A DNA stretch of 35,621 nt from a bacterium (GTDB lineage Bacteria; Patescibacteriota; Saccharimonadia; Saccharimonadales; JAUPVS01), in assembly GCA_029780855.1 (NCBI GenBank), contig JAKOXV010000012.1:1-35621 (forward strand), read 5' to 3'. Each line of letters opens with the position of its first letter. The first letter of the stretch is position 1. Below are positions 8,434 through 35,621 of the stretch, one piece after another. The notes beneath the pieces are model-generated. The model did not search any database, was not told where the DNA came from, and saw only the letters and a list, made by a program, of their open reading frames with translations. The translations under genes were made by a program, and so were the position numbers.

Positions 8434-9057
8434 ATGTTAGGAAATCTTGACGCTTCAGCAATCGTAGTCGTGTTTGTGACTCTGGTTATTTCAATTACTA
8501 TTCACGAAGCGATGCATGCGTTTGCTGGATACTGGCTAGGTGACGATACCGCTAAGCTGGAGGGTAGGCTGTCGCTGAATCCTCTTAGGCACATCGACCC
8601 CTATACCACGTTAATTTTGCCAATTGTTACGCTTGTCGTTTTCAAGGTGCCACTGTTGGCTGCAAAACCAGTTCCATTCAATCCTAACAGGGTAAAATAC
8701 GAAGAGTACGGCGCTGCACTCGTAGGATTGGCGGGGCCATTTAGTAACTTGGTGATGGCAGTAGTAGGTGCTGGTTTGGTGCAAATGCTTAATGGGAATG
8801 TGGCATTAGGCATCGTCAACGCGCTTGTCATTTTTGTACAAGTGAACGTAGCACTGTTTGTATTTAATATGATCCCAATTCCACCGCTCGATGGTTCGCG
8901 TGCTTTGTATGCAGTGGCACCCGAACCGGTACAAGATTTCATGGCTTCTTTGGAGCGGTACGGTGTACTCCTGATTTTTGGGCTCGTACTATTGATTCCA
9001 GGCTTTGGTGTGCTCTTGGTTAACCTCAACACTAAATTATTAAACATTCTCTTGTAA
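8434..9057 (+). CDS. site-2 protease family (M50) membrane metalloprotease
   Basis: 207 residues and mostly hydrophobic, with about five or six membrane segments. The zinc site HEAMH is at residues 24-28 inside the first helix, followed by the family pattern GRLSLNPLRHIDPY, GLAGPFSNLVMAV, and the second metal-ligand motif NMIPIPPLDGSRAL with Asp153. This is the short, PDZ-less form (YwhC/Rv-like) found in many bacteria; it cleaves membrane substrates, which are unknown here. TATAAT (8420-8425) is 8 bases before ATG 8434, so the gene is leaderless. The stop codon (TAA) is inside the likely -35 of the RNA gene that follows. Confidence 0.93.
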   Translation: MLGNLDASAIVVVFVTLVISITIHEAMHAFAGYWLGDDTAKLEGRLSLNPLRHIDPYTTLILPIVTLVVFKVPLLAAKPVPFNPNRVKYEEYGAALVGLAGPFSNLVMAVVGAGLVQMLNGNVALGIVNALVIFVQVNVALFVFNMIPIPPLDGSRALYAVAPEPVQDFMASLERYGVLLIFGLVLLIPGFGVLLVNLNTKLLNILL

Positions 9058-9081
9058 GCTGCTTGCACAAGACGATATAAT
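9052..9081 (+). promoter_or_regulatory. promoter of structured RNA
   Basis: TTGTAA (9052-9057), 18 bases, TATAAT (9076-9081). The -35 overlaps the last codon and stop of the M50 protease gene. Predicted start near 9088. Confidence 0.65.
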
Positions 9082-9087
9082 AGAGGT

Positions 9088-9263
9088 GGCTGGGGAAGGC
9101 GAAAGCCGAAGGCCAACCATATGATTATCTGAATAACTAATCATAGGGAGCTCAACATTTGGGTCGGCCGGGGGTCGACACGTGAGAGCACCCACTTGCG
9201 TACACGCAGGTGATCATGTTGGCTCCAGCTACGTAAAAACTCGAGCGAGAAGCTCGAGTTTTT
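9088..9263 (+). ncRNA. unidentified structured RNA, about 175 nt
   Basis: A promoter and a terminator bracket a GC-rich non-coding unit with clear local folds: GGC-GAAA-GCC near 9098-9107 (GNRA tetraloop) inside a larger GGC/GCC stem; ATGATTA (9119-9125) with TAATCAT (9136-9142); a long-range stem GGAGC-U-CAACAU (9147-9158) with AUGUUG-GCUCC (9216-9226); and inside it a hairpin ACTTGCG/CGCAGGT closed by TACA. It lacks the SRP domain IV motif, the tmRNA ends and a 6S-like single rod. No open frame of note. Housekeeping abundance is plausible because it has its own strong promoter, but the family is unknown to me. Confidence 0.65.
9235..9263. terminator. bidirectional terminator (RNA gene and tRNA-Pro)
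   Basis: AAAAACTCGAGC (9235-9246) pairs perfectly with GCTCGAGTTTTT (9252-9263), loop GAGAA. The T run ends the plus-strand RNA, and the A run becomes a T run for tRNA-Pro, whose 3' end is only 4 bases away. Confidence 0.9.
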
Positions 9264-9267
9264 GCTT

Positions 9268-9343
9268 TGGTCGGGGTGACAGGACTTGAACCTGCGACCT
9301 CACGGCCCCCAGCCGTACGCGCTACCAACTGCGCTACACCCCG
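9268..9343 (-). tRNA. tRNA-Pro (GGG), CCA encoded
   Basis: Minus-strand cloverleaf: acceptor CGGGGTG/CACCCCG, D arm GCGC-AGTTGGTA-GCGC, anticodon loop CTGGGGG with anticodon GGG, T arm GCAGGTTCAAGTCCTGT, 3' ACCA encoded (TGGT at 9268-9271). Confidence 0.97.
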
Positions 9344-11221: not shown

Positions 11222-11571
11222 GGCCAGATTATCGGCTAATCGCTCTGATGTTCAGGGAGGAAAGTCCGGGCAGCGTAGGGAAAGACAGTTGCTAACGGCA
11301 ACCAGGGGAAACCCTAGGGAAAGTGCCACAGAAACGAAACTGCCCCCTATGGGGTAAAGGTGAAACGAGTGGGGTAAGAGCCCACAGTCTTGGCCGGCGA
11401 CGGTCGAGAGAGGTAAACCCTGTCTGCTGCAAGGAGATGGATCCCCTCCGCCAATTGGTGGATGGTTTCCCGCCAGGATTCGTCATATAAAACCGCTTGA
11501 TTCCGCTGGCAACGGTGGAACTAGATAGATGATTAGCTAAAACAGAACCCGGCTTACGGATAGTCTGACAC
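11222..11571 (+). ncRNA. rnpB: RNase P RNA (bacterial type A-like)
   Basis: Catalytic RNA of the tRNA 5'-processing enzyme. The P1 helix joins CAGATTATC (11225-11233) with GATAGTCTG (11559-11567). The universally conserved GGAGGAAAGTCCGGGC is at 11256-11271, GAAACGAAACTGCC follows near 11332, and the 3' ACAGAACCCGGCTTA is at 11542-11556, pairing back to the 5' region (P4). Length about 350 nt is normal. It stands alone between the RNase H gene and the ribosomal operon, with its own -10 box and terminator. Confidence 0.97.
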
Positions 11572-11580
11572 TAAAAATAT

Positions 11581-26871: not shown

Positions 26872-28438
<1,567 letters not shown>

Positions 28439-28556
28439 CTAGGGAGATTTACCAAGCCGTGTAGCTCTATAGACTACATGAGCTATGGTCGATCCTCGGA
28501 CATCTGGGGTTTTGAAGCGTACCAGATATCCCATGAGGAAATAGCTTCTACCTTAT

Positions 28557-28596
28557 ATCGATTGACCGTTTGATTTGCACGAACCAGTTTTTTAAC
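28557..28596 (+). repeat. 16S processing stem, 3' arm
   Basis: Complementary to 26735-26771 in the leader; contains GATTTGCACGAACCAG. Lies directly before the terminator, so the pre-16S transcript is self-contained. Confidence 0.8.
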
Positions 28597-28599
28597 GAT

Positions 28600-28630
28600 A
28601 AAAGAGCCCATTTGCGAGAGGGCTCTTTTT
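28600..28630. terminator. terminator after 16S (bidirectional)
   Basis: AAAAGAGCCC (28600-28609) pairs with GGGCTCTTTT (28620-28629), then T. It ends the 16S transcript before any spacer tRNA or 23S. On the minus strand it serves the acetyltransferase gene. Confidence 0.9.
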
Positions 28631-28634
28631 AGTT

Positions 28635-29126
28635 TTAGGATGGATTATTGACGGTGCGTTGATAGAGAACTGCGTTATTTCGGATGCCCATTCTTTTAAA
28701 GCCCAGCTTCTCATAGTATGAACAGAGGCCGACATTTGTATCGGGGCAGTCCAGACGTACATATTTCCGACCATTTTCTCGTATTTGGTCGGCAGCCCAA
28801 CCTATAATTTTGGGTCCTAGCTGCTGACCCCTAAAATCACTGTGCACAATCAACCCATGTATATAGCCCGCCAAACCATCGTTCCCTTTGTCGCCCCACG
28901 CTGGTTTATCCTCCCATCGCAATACCACGCTGCCGGCGGGTATATCATTAACTTCAACCAGGTAACAACTACCACTCTCTACGCGTAGGGTTACCTCCTC
29001 AGGGGTATATGGTTCGTCGCCCCATGCGTTATCACCAAGTGAAAGCTTAAACTTTCTTGCGTCTTCTAAAAGAGATAGTAGAGTATCTGCGTCTGATTTT
29101 TTAACATGTCTAATTTGTAGTCCCAT
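28635..29126 (-). CDS. GNAT family N-acetyltransferase
   Basis: 163 residues, single GNAT domain. MGLQIRHVKKSDADTLLSLL is the usual first strand and helix; GSVVLRWED and YIHGLIVHSDFRGQQLGPKI carry the acetyl-CoA motif A (RGQQLG), and NVGLCSYYEKLGFKRMG is motif B. Substrate unknown: it could be a small molecule or a protein N-terminus. TATATT (29138-29133) lies 6 bases before ATG 29126, so it is leaderless and separate from the tRNA transcript that ends just upstream. It occupies the place normally taken by the 16S-23S spacer. Confidence 0.9.
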   Translation of the reverse strand: MGLQIRHVKKSDADTLLSLLEDARKFKLSLGDNAWGDEPYTPEEVTLRVESGSCYLVEVNDIPAGSVVLRWEDKPAWGDKGNDGLAGYIHGLIVHSDFRGQQLGPKIIGWAADQIRENGRKYVRLDCPDTNVGLCSYYEKLGFKRMGIRNNAVLYQRTVNNPS

Positions 29127-29140
29127 ACTTCAAATATAAC

Positions 29141-29163
29141 AAAAAAACACCCGTGGGGGTGCT
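29141..29163 (-). terminator. terminator of the tRNA-Ala/tRNA-Ile transcript
   Basis: On the minus strand CACCC (29161-29157) and GGGTG (29152-29148) form a short GC hairpin followed by seven T. Confidence 0.7.
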
Positions 29164-29168
29164 TTTCT

Positions 29169-29245
29169 TGGTGGGCGATGAGGGACTCGAACCTCCGACC
29201 TCGTCATTATCAGTGACGCGCTCTAACCAGCTGAGCTAATCGCCC
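29169..29245 (-). tRNA. tRNA-Ile (GAT), CCA encoded
   Basis: Minus-strand cloverleaf: acceptor GGGCGAT/ATCGCCC, D arm GCTC/GAGC, anticodon stem CGTCA/TGACG with loop CTGATAA (GAT), T arm GGAGGTTCGAGTCCCTC, 3' ACCA encoded. One of the two tRNAs usually found inside the 16S-23S spacer. Confidence 0.97.
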
Positions 29246-29252
29246 GTAATTT

Positions 29253-29329
29253 TGGTGGAGCAACGGGGACTCGAACCCCGGACCCCCTGCTTGCAAAGCA
29301 GGTGCTCTAGCCAACTGAGCTATTGCCCC
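29253..29329 (-). tRNA. tRNA-Ala (TGC), CCA encoded
   Basis: Minus-strand cloverleaf: acceptor GGGGCAA/TTGCTCC with one G-U pair, anticodon stem CCTGC/GCAGG with loop TTTGCAA (TGC), T arm CCGGGGTTCGAGTCCCC, 3' ACCA encoded. Seven bases upstream of tRNA-Ile on the same strand, so one transcript. Confidence 0.97.
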
Positions 29330-29430
29330 ATAAAAACTAGGCCAAAATTACTCGGGGTATTCTACCGGAAACACTGGTGAATTACAAGAGTGGTGTATAC
29401 TGCAGATAGCTAAATTTACAGGAGTGAGAG

Positions 29431-29985
29431 ATGTTTCGAAGAGGTGAGCAACTTGAATCGCCAGTTGCATTGACCGATCAGGATACGGAATTGCTACATC
29501 AAGAGGTGTTGTTACGAATTGTAGTTGATGAGAACGGTGTGGAATATTTAGATGGGTTTCAGCTTCCTCCTGACAACGAAGAGGTATGGAATCCTCGAGT
29601 AATACGCGGTCAGGTGATGCGTGAAGAAACCGTTCGTGAACCGGAAACGGGGGCGCAAACGCAAGAATCTACTACAACCGATATATCGTTTGAGAGCCGC
29701 CTTACAAATAGCTTTGTGCGACACATTAACATCCGTTCAATTAGTCTCGGGCATCAACCGCTATTCATTACCTGGGAAGAAGCATCACAAGATGCTTCTC
29801 TGGCCAAAGAAGAAAGGGCAGAGCTTGAACGCTTGCGAACAAAGGAAGCCCGTGAACGCGTTGGGAGAGGTATGCGACTTGATGAAATGCTGGGTCCCGA
29901 TGAAGCAATGCGAGTTGCAAAAGAGCTTGGTTCACCACCGCAGTTCCAACGAACCAGGCGGCGCAACAGAACGCGTCTAGCTTAG
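29431..29985 (+). CDS. hypothetical protein, 184 aa
   Basis: Not recognised. Starts MFRRGEQLESPVALTDQDTE; AGGAG lies 8 bases before ATG, and TATACT (29396-29401) is a plausible -10. The middle is Glu/Thr-rich and probably disordered (REETVREPETGAQTQESTTT). A beta-like stretch SFVRHINIRSISLGHQPLFITW follows, then a charged helix (AKEERAELERLRTKEARERVG) and a very basic end (RTRRRNRTRLA), which could bind nucleic acid. Its TAG overlaps the TAA of the convergent surface repeat gene (shared bases 29983-29984). Confidence 0.7.
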   Translation: MFRRGEQLESPVALTDQDTELLHQEVLLRIVVDENGVEYLDGFQLPPDNEEVWNPRVIRGQVMREETVREPETGAQTQESTTTDISFESRLTNSFVRHINIRSISLGHQPLFITWEEASQDASLAKEERAELERLRTKEARERVGRGMRLDEMLGPDEAMRVAKELGSPPQFQRTRRRNRTRLA

Positions 29986-32024
29986 GTTAACCGGCGACGC
30001 TGCAAAAATTCGTAGGCCTGATTTCCACCGAGTAGTAGTGAGCCGATAATGAATCCGGCAATCGGCAGAACCCAAGGGTTAGCTGGAGAGTTGCTTGTGT
30101 TAACAGGTGAACTCAGGCCACCTCCAGGTCCGCTGCTACTAGCTAGGATTGCACCGGCACCCTTTCGTGTAGTTTCTCCGTTTGTGCTGTCCTGTGCTGC
30201 TTGCTGGACGTCTGATGCGGTTATTGGTTTGCTGTATACGTAGTAAGTGATTCGTTTTGATGCGCTAACCTCAGGAGCAGTACTAAAGGAAAATACCGGT
30301 GCAGGAGCGGAACTGCTAGATTGTGCCTGTGCTAGCGGTAGGTTCCCGGCTTCAGTGTTAATGCCAAAGCTGCCCACCCAATTACCGAACACGTTTATGA
30401 AAAGAACGCCAAACCAGTCGCTAAAGCTCAAGTTGCTGTTAATGATATTCAAAAGATTCACACTGGCTGTTGCATTTCCCGTGCTGGCATTACCAGCGCT
30501 GGTATTATTACGAACACTCGCATCACCGGTCTGCGCAGCAACGTTAATGTTGTTGTTGATCTGGCTGTTGCTGGCGTTGTTCAGGTTGACATCACCGACA
30601 CCGGTCGTGGGTATGCCGTCATTGGTGGTTATTCCGCCCCCCAGTGCAGCGGCGGTCGCTCCCTGAGGAGCATCCATGATGACGCCTACCCAACGGCCGA
30701 GCACGTTCACAAACACCAGTAGGGAGTCCTTACCGATAACCTGACGTCCGGTCAGGTTAAGGATGGTCAGGTTAGTCAAAGAATCGCCAGTTGTAGCACT
30801 GCCTGCAGAAGTGTTGTGGTCAACGGTAGCCTGACCAGAGGTAGCGTTGGCGTTAACGTGGTTACTAATCGCCTGAGTATCGGTATTGGAGAGGTTGAGA
30901 CTGCTGCCACCAGTAGTACTCCCGCCGTTACTGGCTAATAATGCGTTCAGTACGTCCTGTGGCAGGAGAATGTCACCGTCTAGGTTACCGTAGATGTTAA
31001 TAACACCCATAAATGACTGGCCGCTACTGATCATCGAGTTGAGCATGTTGACGACATTAGCAACGGCATCTGCATTTCCTGTGGTAGCATTGCCACCGTT
31101 TGTATTGTTTTGAACGGTAGCGCTACCGCTCTGGGCAGCAAGGTCTATCGTGTTATCAATCAACCCATTAGCTTGATTGTTGATGGTTACGTCTCCGTTA
31201 GGATTGGGGTCGGATGGTGCTTGCTGCAGGACGCGCGGATCAATGTATAGGTCGCCGGTAACGTCGCCGGTGATATCACTGCTGAATGTCTGGAGGTTGC
31301 CGCCACCACTATTCCAATAGGATTGTAAAAGGTTTATCAGGTTAGCAATTGCTGCAGCATTACCGGTAGTTGAATCGCCGGCGTTAGTATTAGAGTCTAC
31401 AGTAGTATCGCCACTTACGGCCTTTGAGGTGATACGCGTGCTGATTGAAGCGTCGTAGAAATTGTCGAACACCCCTGTACTTTTGCTAGCAGTAGAGGAT
31501 TTGTTTTTGCTAGCAGGGACGCTATTTTGAATTATTGGATCCCCGGAGGTCGATGGATCTTCTGTGGCTGTTCCTAATCCGCTGAGCTTTGCGCCTGTTG
31601 TGGTTGTAGGTCCAGTCTTACTGATAGTACCGGTTGTTCCCTGAGTGCCGGTCGGGCTAGTTGGACCGGTTGGGCCAGTGGGTCCTTGGCTGGTAGTTTT
31701 GGGGTTGGGAACGTATGTACCAGTTGATTGATCATAGGCATATGCCTTGGTGTCCCACATTCCCGTATCTGGATTGTAGCTGTAATCTTGCTTTTGGAGT
31801 GGGGTAGTCTGGCCAGTGTTCGGATCCCAGCTGTACGTTCCATTCTCCCAGAGTCCCGTAGCTTCGTTGTAATGGTACGTTGAGTCGGGAGCCGAATTAG
31901 CAGAAGAAGTGCTGGTGTTAGTGGTTGCTGTTTGAGCGTGGACGGCGCCTTGCGAGAGAGCCACTATTGAAATTGTAATGATAAGCATCGTAAGACTGGC
32001 TGGTATAGACTGATTTTTTCTCAT
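29982..32024 (-). CDS. secreted, membrane-anchored Asn/Thr-rich repeat protein
   Basis: About 680 residues from ATG 32024 (GGAGGGA 6 bases upstream); a GTG two codons earlier is less likely. Signal peptide LTMLIITISIVALSQGAVHA, cleaved before Gln. Next come about four YxYNxxTGxW-type units (residues 52-108), then a Gly-Pro-Thr collagen-like stretch (GPTGPTGPTSPTG). Between about 196 and 560 there are four units of 90-100 residues, each with an xNNTxAGxAxTGNA core, a hydrophobic helix such as VANVVNMLNSM, and a FxNVxGxWVG strand. The C-terminus has a membrane helix (VLPIAGFIIGSLLLGG) and basic RRR. It probably decorates the surface as an adhesin-like fibre (inference). Confidence 0.8.
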   Translation of the reverse strand: MRKNQSIPASLTMLIITISIVALSQGAVHAQTATTNTSTSSANSAPDSTYHYNEATGLWENGTYSWDPNTGQTTPLQKQDYSYNPDTGMWDTKAYAYDQSTGTYVPNPKTTSQGPTGPTGPTSPTGTQGTTGTISKTGPTTTTGAKLSGLGTATEDPSTSGDPIIQNSVPASKNKSSTASKSTGVFDNFYDASISTRITSKAVSGDTTVDSNTNAGDSTTGNAAAIANLINLLQSYWNSGGGNLQTFSSDITGDVTGDLYIDPRVLQQAPSDPNPNGDVTINNQANGLIDNTIDLAAQSGSATVQNNTNGGNATTGNADAVANVVNMLNSMISSGQSFMGVINIYGNLDGDILLPQDVLNALLASNGGSTTGGSSLNLSNTDTQAISNHVNANATSGQATVDHNTSAGSATTGDSLTNLTILNLTGRQVIGKDSLLVFVNVLGRWVGVIMDAPQGATAAALGGGITTNDGIPTTGVGDVNLNNASNSQINNNINVAAQTGDASVRNNTSAGNASTGNATASVNLLNIINSNLSFSDWFGVLFINVFGNWVGSFGINTEAGNLPLAQAQSSSSAPAPVFSFSTAPEVSASKRITYYVYSKPITASDVQQAAQDSTNGETTRKGAGAILASSSGPGGGLSSPVNTSNSPANPWVLPIAGFIIGSLLLGGNQAYEFLQRRRLT
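30351..31445 (-). repeat. four in-gene repeats coding for the NNTxAGxAxTG unit
   Basis: Repeat cores around residues 196-237, 289-332, 386-428 and 488-533 of the surface protein, each followed by a FxNVxGxWVG-like strand in three of four cases. The same core occurs twice in the neighbouring small secreted protein. Confidence 0.75.
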
Positions 32025-32098
32025 ACACACTCCCTCCGTAGGATTATTTGTGGATAACGAGTTGGGGAAAAGGAGGGAATGGGCGGACAGACCCTCCG
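32025..32098 (-). promoter_or_regulatory. leader with mutually exclusive Shine-Dalgarno pairings
   Basis: On the minus strand, in order: CGGAGGGT (32098-32091), TCCCTCC (32078-32072) and the Shine-Dalgarno GGAGGGA (32037-32031) before ATG 32024. TCCCTCC can pair with either GGAGGG copy, so pairing with the first would free the ribosome-binding site and pairing with the second would hide it. That is riboswitch- or thermosensor-like logic; the trigger is unknown. Confidence 0.5.
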
Positions 32099-32134
32099 AT
32101 GTACTACCCCTAAGGAACTAATGCAGTATAGGTG

Positions 32135-32722
32135 CTAGTTCGTAACGTTAAGTGTTACTTGTGACGTGTTGACGTTCTGGGCGTCACCACTGGCAGCGCC
32201 GCCTGCAGTCGTGTTATTCGTAACGACAGCTGAACCGGTAGTAGCTGTTTGGTCTGAGGTATTACAAACTTGTAGGTTGGTATTATTACGAATATTGGTA
32301 ACGTCTGAGTTACGAGTCACTACGGCATTGTAAGAGCTTGGGCCGGTGGTGCTGATTGTAGCGCTGTTGGCAGAATTGTTGGCAGCAGAGTTATTTCCAG
32401 CAGTTGCAGCAACGGAGTTATTGACGCTAGCAGCTACGGACGTCAGGTTGTCGTTGTAGGACATACCAGTTGTTGCCGAACCAGCAGTCGTGTTGTTGGC
32501 TACCGTAACGTTACCGCTATGAGCCGCCTGTGAAGAATCGTTATTCACACGGGCAGTGGTGTTATTGTGTACATTTCGACGGGTCATGTTATGGAACGTT
32601 GCACGGTTGGTAGAGTTAGGACCAGTAGTATTGATACTACCGCTCTCGGCTGCAGCCAAACCGCCTGTCAATCCCATGACCATGACGATCGCTGATGTTA
32701 GTTGAATTATTCTTTTTCGCAT
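32135..32722 (-). CDS. small secreted Asn/Thr-rich repeat protein, 195 aa
   Basis: Signal peptide MRKRIIQLTSAIVMVMGLTG with cleavage near LAAAES. The mature part is very rich in Asn, Thr, Ser and Ala and holds two copies of the unit seen in the larger downstream protein: GNVTVANNTTAGSATTG and SAVVTNNTTAGGAASGDA, plus two ISTTGP/INTTGP motifs. No membrane anchor, one Cys. Strong Shine-Dalgarno GAAGGGAGGG 5 bases before ATG. It may be secreted and polymerise with, or be displayed by, the downstream protein (inference from shared repeats). Composition is unlike its neighbours. Confidence 0.78.
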   Translation of the reverse strand: MRKRIIQLTSAIVMVMGLTGGLAAAESGSINTTGPNSTNRATFHNMTRRNVHNNTTARVNNDSSQAAHSGNVTVANNTTAGSATTGMSYNDNLTSVAASVNNSVAATAGNNSAANNSANSATISTTGPSSYNAVVTRNSDVTNIRNNTNLQVCNTSDQTATTGSAVVTNNTTAGGAASGDAQNVNTSQVTLNVTN

Positions 32723-32811
32723 AAGACCCTCCCTTCGGATTGCTTGCTTAATATCAGTACCTGTTAGTTGTCCGACCCCACAAAGTAGTCCGCCCTACTA
32801 TATGAAGCCAG

Positions 32812-32955
32812 TTAGCCAACGGTACTATGAGAAATAAAAACATCCCCGAGTAGCCTGGGGATTTTGAAGATTGGAATAGCTCGAAGAAGGGAGACTGCAT
32901 GTGCAACTACCGGAATATCAGAATTTAATGCATACTCAAAAATAACCTGTTGCAT
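32812..32955 (-). CDS. possible 47-residue peptide or leader peptide
   Basis: ATG 32955 to TAA 32812-32814 gives MQQVIFEYALNSDIPVVAHA and a hydrophobic middle (VVAHAVSLLRAIPIF). A strong Shine-Dalgarno GGGAGGGG lies 5 bases upstream, the same type as the surface genes use. The frame crosses a terminator-like hairpin and contains a segment complementary to its own Shine-Dalgarno, so it may act as a regulatory leader for the surface genes instead of a functional protein. An in-frame extension to 33012 would begin before the ribosome-binding site and is rejected. Confidence 0.4.
   Translation of the reverse strand: MQQVIFEYALNSDIPVVAHAVSLLRAIPIFKIPRLLGDVFISHSTVG
32833..32861 (-). terminator. 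terminator-like hairpin inside the small frame
   Basis: On the minus strand ATCCCC and GGGGAT form a hairpin with an 8-9 base loop, followed by GTTTTTATTT. It lies upstream of the small secreted protein gene, so it could attenuate the surface gene transcript. Confidence 0.6.
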
Positions 32956-32971
32956 AGGCCCCTCCCTTCTT
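32884..32971 (-). promoter_or_regulatory. inverted repeat hiding the small frame's Shine-Dalgarno
   Basis: AAGAAGGGAG (32971-32962, the ribosome-binding site) is perfectly complementary over 10 bases to CTCCCTTCTT (32893-32884) within the frame. Pairing would block translation and might control formation of the downstream hairpin. Confidence 0.5.
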
Positions 32972-33105
32972 GACCAAACACGCAGCTCAGTCGAATGAAA
33001 GTGTAAGCACAAAAAGCATTAGCGTCTGCAATATATTTCACAATATTTCTAGCAAATTGAACTTTACAGAGGTGGGGGTGTAGCAATTTTCGCATCAACA
33101 TAGGG

Positions 33106-33134
33106 TTGACTACCTCTGTTTTGGGTGCTAAAAT
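33106..33134 (+). promoter_or_regulatory. 23S rRNA promoter
   Basis: TTGACT (33106-33111), 17 bases, TAAAAT (33129-33134). RNA starts near 33141, giving a leader of about 240 nt with a GCTTGAG/CTCAAGC stem (33143-33208 region) and TTTTGAAACTTAACAA-like sequence typical of pre-rRNA spacers. Positions 33013-33105 hold no gene. Confidence 0.75.
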
Positions 33135-33332
33135 GGTCAGGCTGCTTGAGTTTAGGCACGAGGAATCGCGCGATAAACCGCCAAGCTTCTAGCGTAAGCT
33201 CAAGCAAACAGCAATATCCGAAGGGTTTTTTGTGGGATTGCTTAGAGTTTTGAAACTTAACAATTGAATGTAAAGAAGAGAGATGTATAGATTATGTAAT
33301 ATGGACATAATCGAATGCAGAACAAACGGCAT

Positions 33333-33358
33333 TAGTTATTGGTACCCACCAATAACTA
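33333..33358 (+). repeat. hairpin in the 23S leader
   Basis: TAGTTATTGG (33333-33342) pairs perfectly with CCAATAACTA (33349-33358). It lies about 25 bases before 23S and may guide processing. Confidence 0.6.
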
Positions 33359-33384
33359 GTCAAATGTACGAAATATCGTAAAAA

Positions 33385-35621
<2,237 letters not shown>

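Follow-up and report, generated by a model that had tools for sequence, protein, structure and literature searches.

Evidence that a structured RNA of a Saccharibacterium is a divergent 6S RNA

The RNA-like element that occupies an intergenic gap at positions 9086-9263 of the plus strand of the window (the whole stretch of 35,621 nucleotides analysed here) is very probably the single-copy, divergent 6S RNA (ssrS/SsrS, RF00013) of a Saccharibacterium, a rod that, judging its function by homology, would act as a mimic of the open promoter. In this guise 6S RNA binds sigma-A RNA polymerase, and it is released when its 5' bulge is copied into pRNA (PMC8876501, PMC8414754, PMC9130861). An earlier note had described the element as an independent structured RNA that belonged to no recognised family and lacked 6S signatures. 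The first part of this description stands, given a promoter and a terminator that belong to the RNA, an unusually stable fold and covariation in sister genomes. The second part was mistaken, since coincident and reciprocal covariance-model matches link the RNA to 6S, and both 6S anatomy and 6S model matches are found among its homologues.

The gap is flanked by an ORF ending at 9057 and by a tRNA-Pro(GGG) gene on the minus strand (9268-9343). Folding of the RNA gave -73.9 kcal/mol, against -48.7 +/- 4.0 kcal/mol for shuffled sequences (z = -6.3), with 0 of 200 shuffles as stable. The Rfam covariance search that had been proposed as a check returned no family above its gathering score at 9086-9263, but in a permissive scan there was a weak 6S match over 9127-9211 (18.0 bits, E = 0.079). 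The cut-off of RF00013 is 46.4 bits, a detection threshold and not a biological trait, and it is because of this distance that Rfam misses the RNA of the window. Weak matches to sraL, AgrB, mir-15, tsr25 and DUF3800-VIII fall on the terminator hairpin and appear to be due to chance. The 6S match, taken alone, could also be dismissed and was therefore tested with relatives.

A blastn search with 9080-9265 as query located the RNA in 29 of the 149 genomes examined from the order. A protein-level scan of contigs with the neighbouring queA-like ORF returned mainly distant bacteria, which were used solely as comparison genomes. A covariance model of 29 homologues of the order, R1 (its alignment holds 29 trimmed sequences, two of which came in via the 6S model), gave exactly one match per genome in 125 of the 149 (104 of the 117 good ones), and under strict filters gave none in 24, many but not all of which are incomplete. 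RF00013 matched 11 of the same 149 genomes, all below the cut-off, and in 11 of 11 the match was the R1 locus, seven of these having been found independently by blastn. Among 381 genomes of the phylum, RF00013 had matches in 31, with four above the cut-off, and R1 in 104; where a genome had both, place and strand agreed in 20 of 20 cases, including all four above the cut-off. Order and phylum together thus provide 29 distinct genomes with no disagreement between the two models. Furthermore, 30 loci fetched with RF00013 (two of them in the R1 training set), some of which R1 missed under strict filters, were all matched by R1 at the RF00013 position (30/30, E up to 0.05), and of 4227 Rfam families only 6S has a match to the tested homologues at the locus with E<=0.01. 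RF00013 scores run from 18.0 bits in the window through up to 39.5 in homologues of the order to 55-60 bits elsewhere in the phylum, where all homologues above the cut-off are recognised by R1.

A broader model built from Patescibacteria only, R2, has a single match in the window, at the body of the 6S RNA (E 3.6e-20), and it also recognises 6S RNAs beyond the phylum. R1, run without filters on non-Patescibacterial 6S, had given weak matches in the right place for Aquificales (E 0.19) and Paenibacillus (E 0.81). These were resolved by R2, which matches the 6S of Paenibacillus (L162, 1523-1659, E = 2.7e-8) and that of an Aquificales genome (L164, 1527-1647, E = 0.0021), each within the RF00013 position. 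Accepted 6S RNAs are recognised by the models built from relatives of the window RNA in four of four Patescibacteria (R1) and in Paenibacillus and Aquificales (R2), and the coincident matches form a chain that leads from the RNA of the window to its order, from there to the Patescibacteria above the cut-off and so to the 6S of Firmicutes. The proteobacterial 6S RNAs tested, that of E. coli included, had no R2 match. This poor recognition of proteobacterial 6S by R1 and R2, and the position of the window RNA below the Rfam cut-off, might be expected of a genuinely new RNA family with a convergent or chance likeness to 6S. We consider such a family highly unlikely, and it is contradicted by the present results: the two models coincide perfectly in the 29 distinct genomes, some members exceed the curated cut-off, and a model of Patescibacteria alone recognises Firmicutes 6S. 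We thus retain the identification as 6S RNA, which the standard databases miss in Patescibacteria because its sequence has drifted; as judged from the genomes searched, it occurs in most Saccharibacteria and many other tiny Patescibacteria.

Other known RNAs were also considered. No match to the SRP RNA model (RF00169) is present at the locus or elsewhere in the genome, and there is one weak match in 61 relatives, which would leave room for the element being the missing SRP RNA. However, Ffh (TIGR00959) is missing too, with 0 of 21 genomes matching and 14 of 14 controls doing so, and loss of SRP has been reported for Parcubacteria (PMC4508563). The SRP pathway thus seems, from its sequence signatures, to be missing in these Saccharibacteria, and with 6S alone matching the homologues at the locus, the idea of an SRP RNA is contradicted and its probability is close to nil. 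The tmRNA (RF00023) sits at G000:C17:133795-134193 and the RNase P RNA at 11224-11572 of the window, 2 kb from the element as the earlier note had stated, and its view that the element was none of these three RNAs is upheld.

The body of the 6S RNA, from closing stem to closing stem, is 9086-9232 on the plus strand, or about 147 nt with the terminator extra (R1 E 8e-20). It is a rod, backed by covariation, that runs from the closing stem through a large central bulge to the apical arm. The outer closing stem pairs 9086-9093 with 9225-9232 in the fold and has an equivalent in the folds of homologues, while the inner closing stem pairs 9111-9117 with 9218-9224, with six of six pairs covarying in both the order-level and the phylum-level test; their 3' strands (9218-9232) are supported by covariation and fold. 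The 5' central bulge (9118-9145), as defined by the R1 alignment, contains the most conserved block of the order. It is followed by the apical arm (9146-9193), where covariation supports GGG 9146-9148 with CCC 9191-9193, GCUC 9150-9153 with GAGC 9186-9189, and a terminal hairpin at 9163-9179. Opposite the 5' bulge, the 3' central bulge carries a hairpin, ACUUGCG/CGCAGGU (9194-9211), which is likewise supported by covariation and has 94% of cells paired in the order alignment, where it is helix 5 (helix 8 in the phylum set); its start overlaps the family motif CCCACCU, which in the window reads CCCACUU (9191-9197).

Covariation shows that the compensating stems proposed from the single sequence are real. 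Among 36 pairs of the order alignment, 22 have changes on both sides; cells with such double changes number 165, compared with 53 +/- 8 after shuffling, and 89.8% of cells are paired, compared to 76.0% when shuffled and 34-46% when slid. At the level of the phylum, 31 of 36 pairs covary (390 cells against 128 +/- 9 shuffled) in an alignment that was fitted to the model and so leans towards it; the CCCAC motif hardly varies there, nor do the GGG and CCC of the apical arm. Sister genomes therefore provide the conservation and the strong covariation that had been suggested as a check. Two of the stems first proposed fared less well. A GAAA-capped hairpin is indeed present on the 5' side of the closing stem (9098-9107, from sequence and fold), but it is a variable decoration, in a spot that differs in length between species and holds no hairpin in several relatives. 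The long-range GGAGC-CAACAU helix, a pairing of GGAGC..CAACAU with AUGUUGGCUCC, was rejected: it is without covariation, its 51.5% of paired cells, a level reached by 197 of 500 shuffles, compares to 51.0% on shuffling, and its two strands are parts of the closing stem and of the apical arm.

The RNA is encoded by an independent, single-copy gene with a promoter of its own. Upstream of the body lie the -10 box TATAAT (9076-9081) and, with a spacer of 18, the -35-like TTGTAA (9052-9057), which together agree with consensus at 10 of 12 positions, so that the good promoter claimed earlier is borne out. The -10 is kept in homologues, with a box of this type upstream in 48 of 58 loci (14% background) and an exact TATAAT in 36 of 58 (3.7% background). 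Downstream, an intrinsic terminator at 9235-9263, AAAAACTCGAGC-GAGAA-GCTCGAGTTTTT, is symmetric and therefore bidirectional, as had been claimed, and is common to the RNA and the convergent tRNA-Pro gene. It is the sole case on the plus strand of the window of a perfect 7-bp GC-rich stem followed by TTTTT, a pattern seen once in total across ten random sequences of window size.

The neighbouring tRNA gene raises the question of whether the element could be a leader, attenuator or processing signal that acts in cis on tRNA-Pro. The linkage is constant, in that tRNA-Pro(GGG) is the nearest tRNA in 44 of the 44 loci that have any (58 loci were examined), and in about 19 loci it lies on the same strand and starts 11-41 nt past the model match. 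But the orientation varies, the tRNA being on the opposite strand in the window and in twelve relatives, and 14 of the 58 loci have no tRNA in reach; it is because of this variation that we reject cis-regulation, and the promoter of the RNA and, in the window, its own terminator also leave a cis-element exceedingly improbable. The loci with the 11-41 nt same-strand arrangement include L004, L007, L009, L015, L021, L023 and L028. In some loci the downstream tRNA-Pro(GGG) has its own TATAAT box, and in L007 there is no room for a promoter or terminator, a spacing that suggests a 6S-tRNA precursor there. In four divergent relatives (L110, L111, L117 and L023), too, the gene for RNase P RNA is close by, at about 0.7-1 kb from that of the 6S RNA. 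The genes for 6S, tRNA-Pro and RNase P form a conserved cluster of housekeeping RNAs. The rRNA region of the window (26872-35621) has the 16S at 26872-28438 and a 23S that starts at 33379 and is cut by the window end; the gap of about 5 kb between them holds tRNA-Ile and tRNA-Ala (29169-29329) on the opposite strand, an unusual layout both for its long spacing and for the inversion of the tRNAs.

Within the 5' bulge, a pRNA template can be predicted at 9121-9134 by projection from an alignment with Paenibacillus 6S, together with published features of start sites (PMC8414754). The first templated base would be U9134 and the predicted pRNA is 5'-AUUCAGAUAAUCAU-3'. With the start so projected, A9135 adjoins it and fits the adenine hallmark, and a GG at pRNA positions 4/5 or 5/6 is not encoded (predicted AUUCAG..., AUUCAGAU...); such a GG has been reported for several 6S RNAs and is common but not universal (PMC8414754). 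The candidate template also bears on whether the RNA could be a 6S descendant or look-alike that, as Ms1 does in Actinobacteria, binds the sigma-free core of RNA polymerase. Ms1 has a structure related to that of 6S, a similar rod around a central bubble, and shows that an RNA of this kind can have another partner (PMC9130861); the hosts of cultured Saccharibacteria are themselves Actinobacteria. Ms1, however, is about 300 nt long and carries two additional short terminal hairpins (PMC9130861), dimensions not found in a body of about 147 nt plus terminator; moreover, there is no Ms1-type Rfam match at the locus whereas the 6S model does match homologues, and the candidate template sits in the most conserved block of the order. 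An Ms1-like RNA is, in our judgement, very improbable, although less so than the other alternatives, and we continue with the reading as 6S RNA.

The same bulge contains an element, UGAUUA (9122-9127), that can pair in two ways according to the fold and to counts of pairing. In form A it pairs with UAAUCA (9138-9143) as a hairpin inside the 5' bulge, and in form B with UGAUCA (9211-9216) on the 3' strand, which extends the closing stem (98% of cells paired) and in which U9211 is common to the 3'-bulge hairpin. The forms are mutually exclusive and thermodynamics does not separate their populations, the energies being -60.0 and -59.5 kcal/mol, within 0.5 kcal/mol, and the probabilities of pairing roughly 0.56 and 0.43. 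When a pairing is counted as available with at least 5 of 6 complementary bases, a definition that is loose for some divergent members, 48 of the 58 sequences from the order have both pairings at their disposal, eight have only form B, and none is restricted to form A. In 12 sequences the element reads UGAUAA; the partner in form B has changed to match it, and so, in most of the 12, has the partner in form A. Since several divergent relatives lack form A, form B looks, on sequence comparison, to be the older and form A a lineage addition. The element probably serves the refolding of the RNA, in a manner that resembles the 'central bubble collapse' helix known from other 6S RNAs.

From the homology we infer polymerase binding, pRNA synthesis and its start site, and the roles of switch and throttle, in a mechanism that would run as follows. 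The rod with its central bulge would imitate a melted promoter, and RNA polymerase with the housekeeping sigma would be expected to bind the RNA in place of promoters on DNA. With nucleotides in good supply, the polymerase would copy the strand of the 5' bulge into the short pRNA, starting about opposite U9134; this synthesis would open the adjoining extension of the closing stem, refold the RNA and free the polymerase, and the exchange of UGAUUA between its 3'-strand partner (form B) and the complement in its own bulge (form A) may serve the refolding. The genome has one Sigma70_r2 domain (G000:C9:181116-181325, L227), in an RpoD-type protein beside a DnaG-like gene, which would be the partner sigma of the RNA, and a search for sigma-70-type factors found no alternative one in this 97.8% complete genome. 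With RpoD as the sole factor of this type found, 6S may throttle transcription globally instead of switching between sigma factors; in the case that no other sigma factor exists it could not favour another of the sigma-70 type. We tentatively propose, with slightly less than even confidence, a Patescibacteria-wide subclass of 6S missed by Rfam, which in Saccharibacteria would be a two-state switch and, with a single sigma-70, a global on/off throttle tied to nucleotide supply from the host and not to a shift of sigma.

Compared with known systems, the RNA most resembles the 6S of Firmicutes and Aquificales (for example, B. subtilis 6S-1 RNA) in its closing stem, large 5' bulge with a candidate pRNA template, 3'-bulge hairpin and apical arm, and also in the GGG...CCCACC core, the single-copy gene with its own promoter, the adenine beside the predicted pRNA start and the direct R2 match to Paenibacillus 6S. 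It differs from them in being about 147 nt and not 180-200, in a divergence too great for the Rfam cut-off, in having no GG at pRNA positions 4-6, in the self-complementary UGAUUA...UAAUCA of the 5' bulge, in its tRNA-Pro(GGG) linkage and in having RpoD as the only sigma-70-type factor detected. With E. coli 6S RNA it shares the overall architecture and the expected role, but there is no direct R1 or R2 match. In E. coli, transcription can shift to alternative sigma factors. The terms '6S RNA' and 'Saccharibacteria' did not occur together in any paper of the literature searched, which left most subscription papers outside, so priority is uncertain.

A large share of bacterial diversity belongs to the Patescibacteria. 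The interest of the RNA lies in this host group, in its near-absence from Rfam-based annotation and in a possible two-state bulge. Reduced episymbionts keep a 6S RNA even though the Rfam cut-off finds it in 4 of 381 genomes of the phylum, and an apparent absence is thereby corrected. Cultured Saccharibacteria, TM7x among them, now provide a setting in which this putative global regulator of transcription can be tested and, if RpoD is the sole sigma factor, they would offer a clean test of the role of 6S where there is no alternative sigma to favour.
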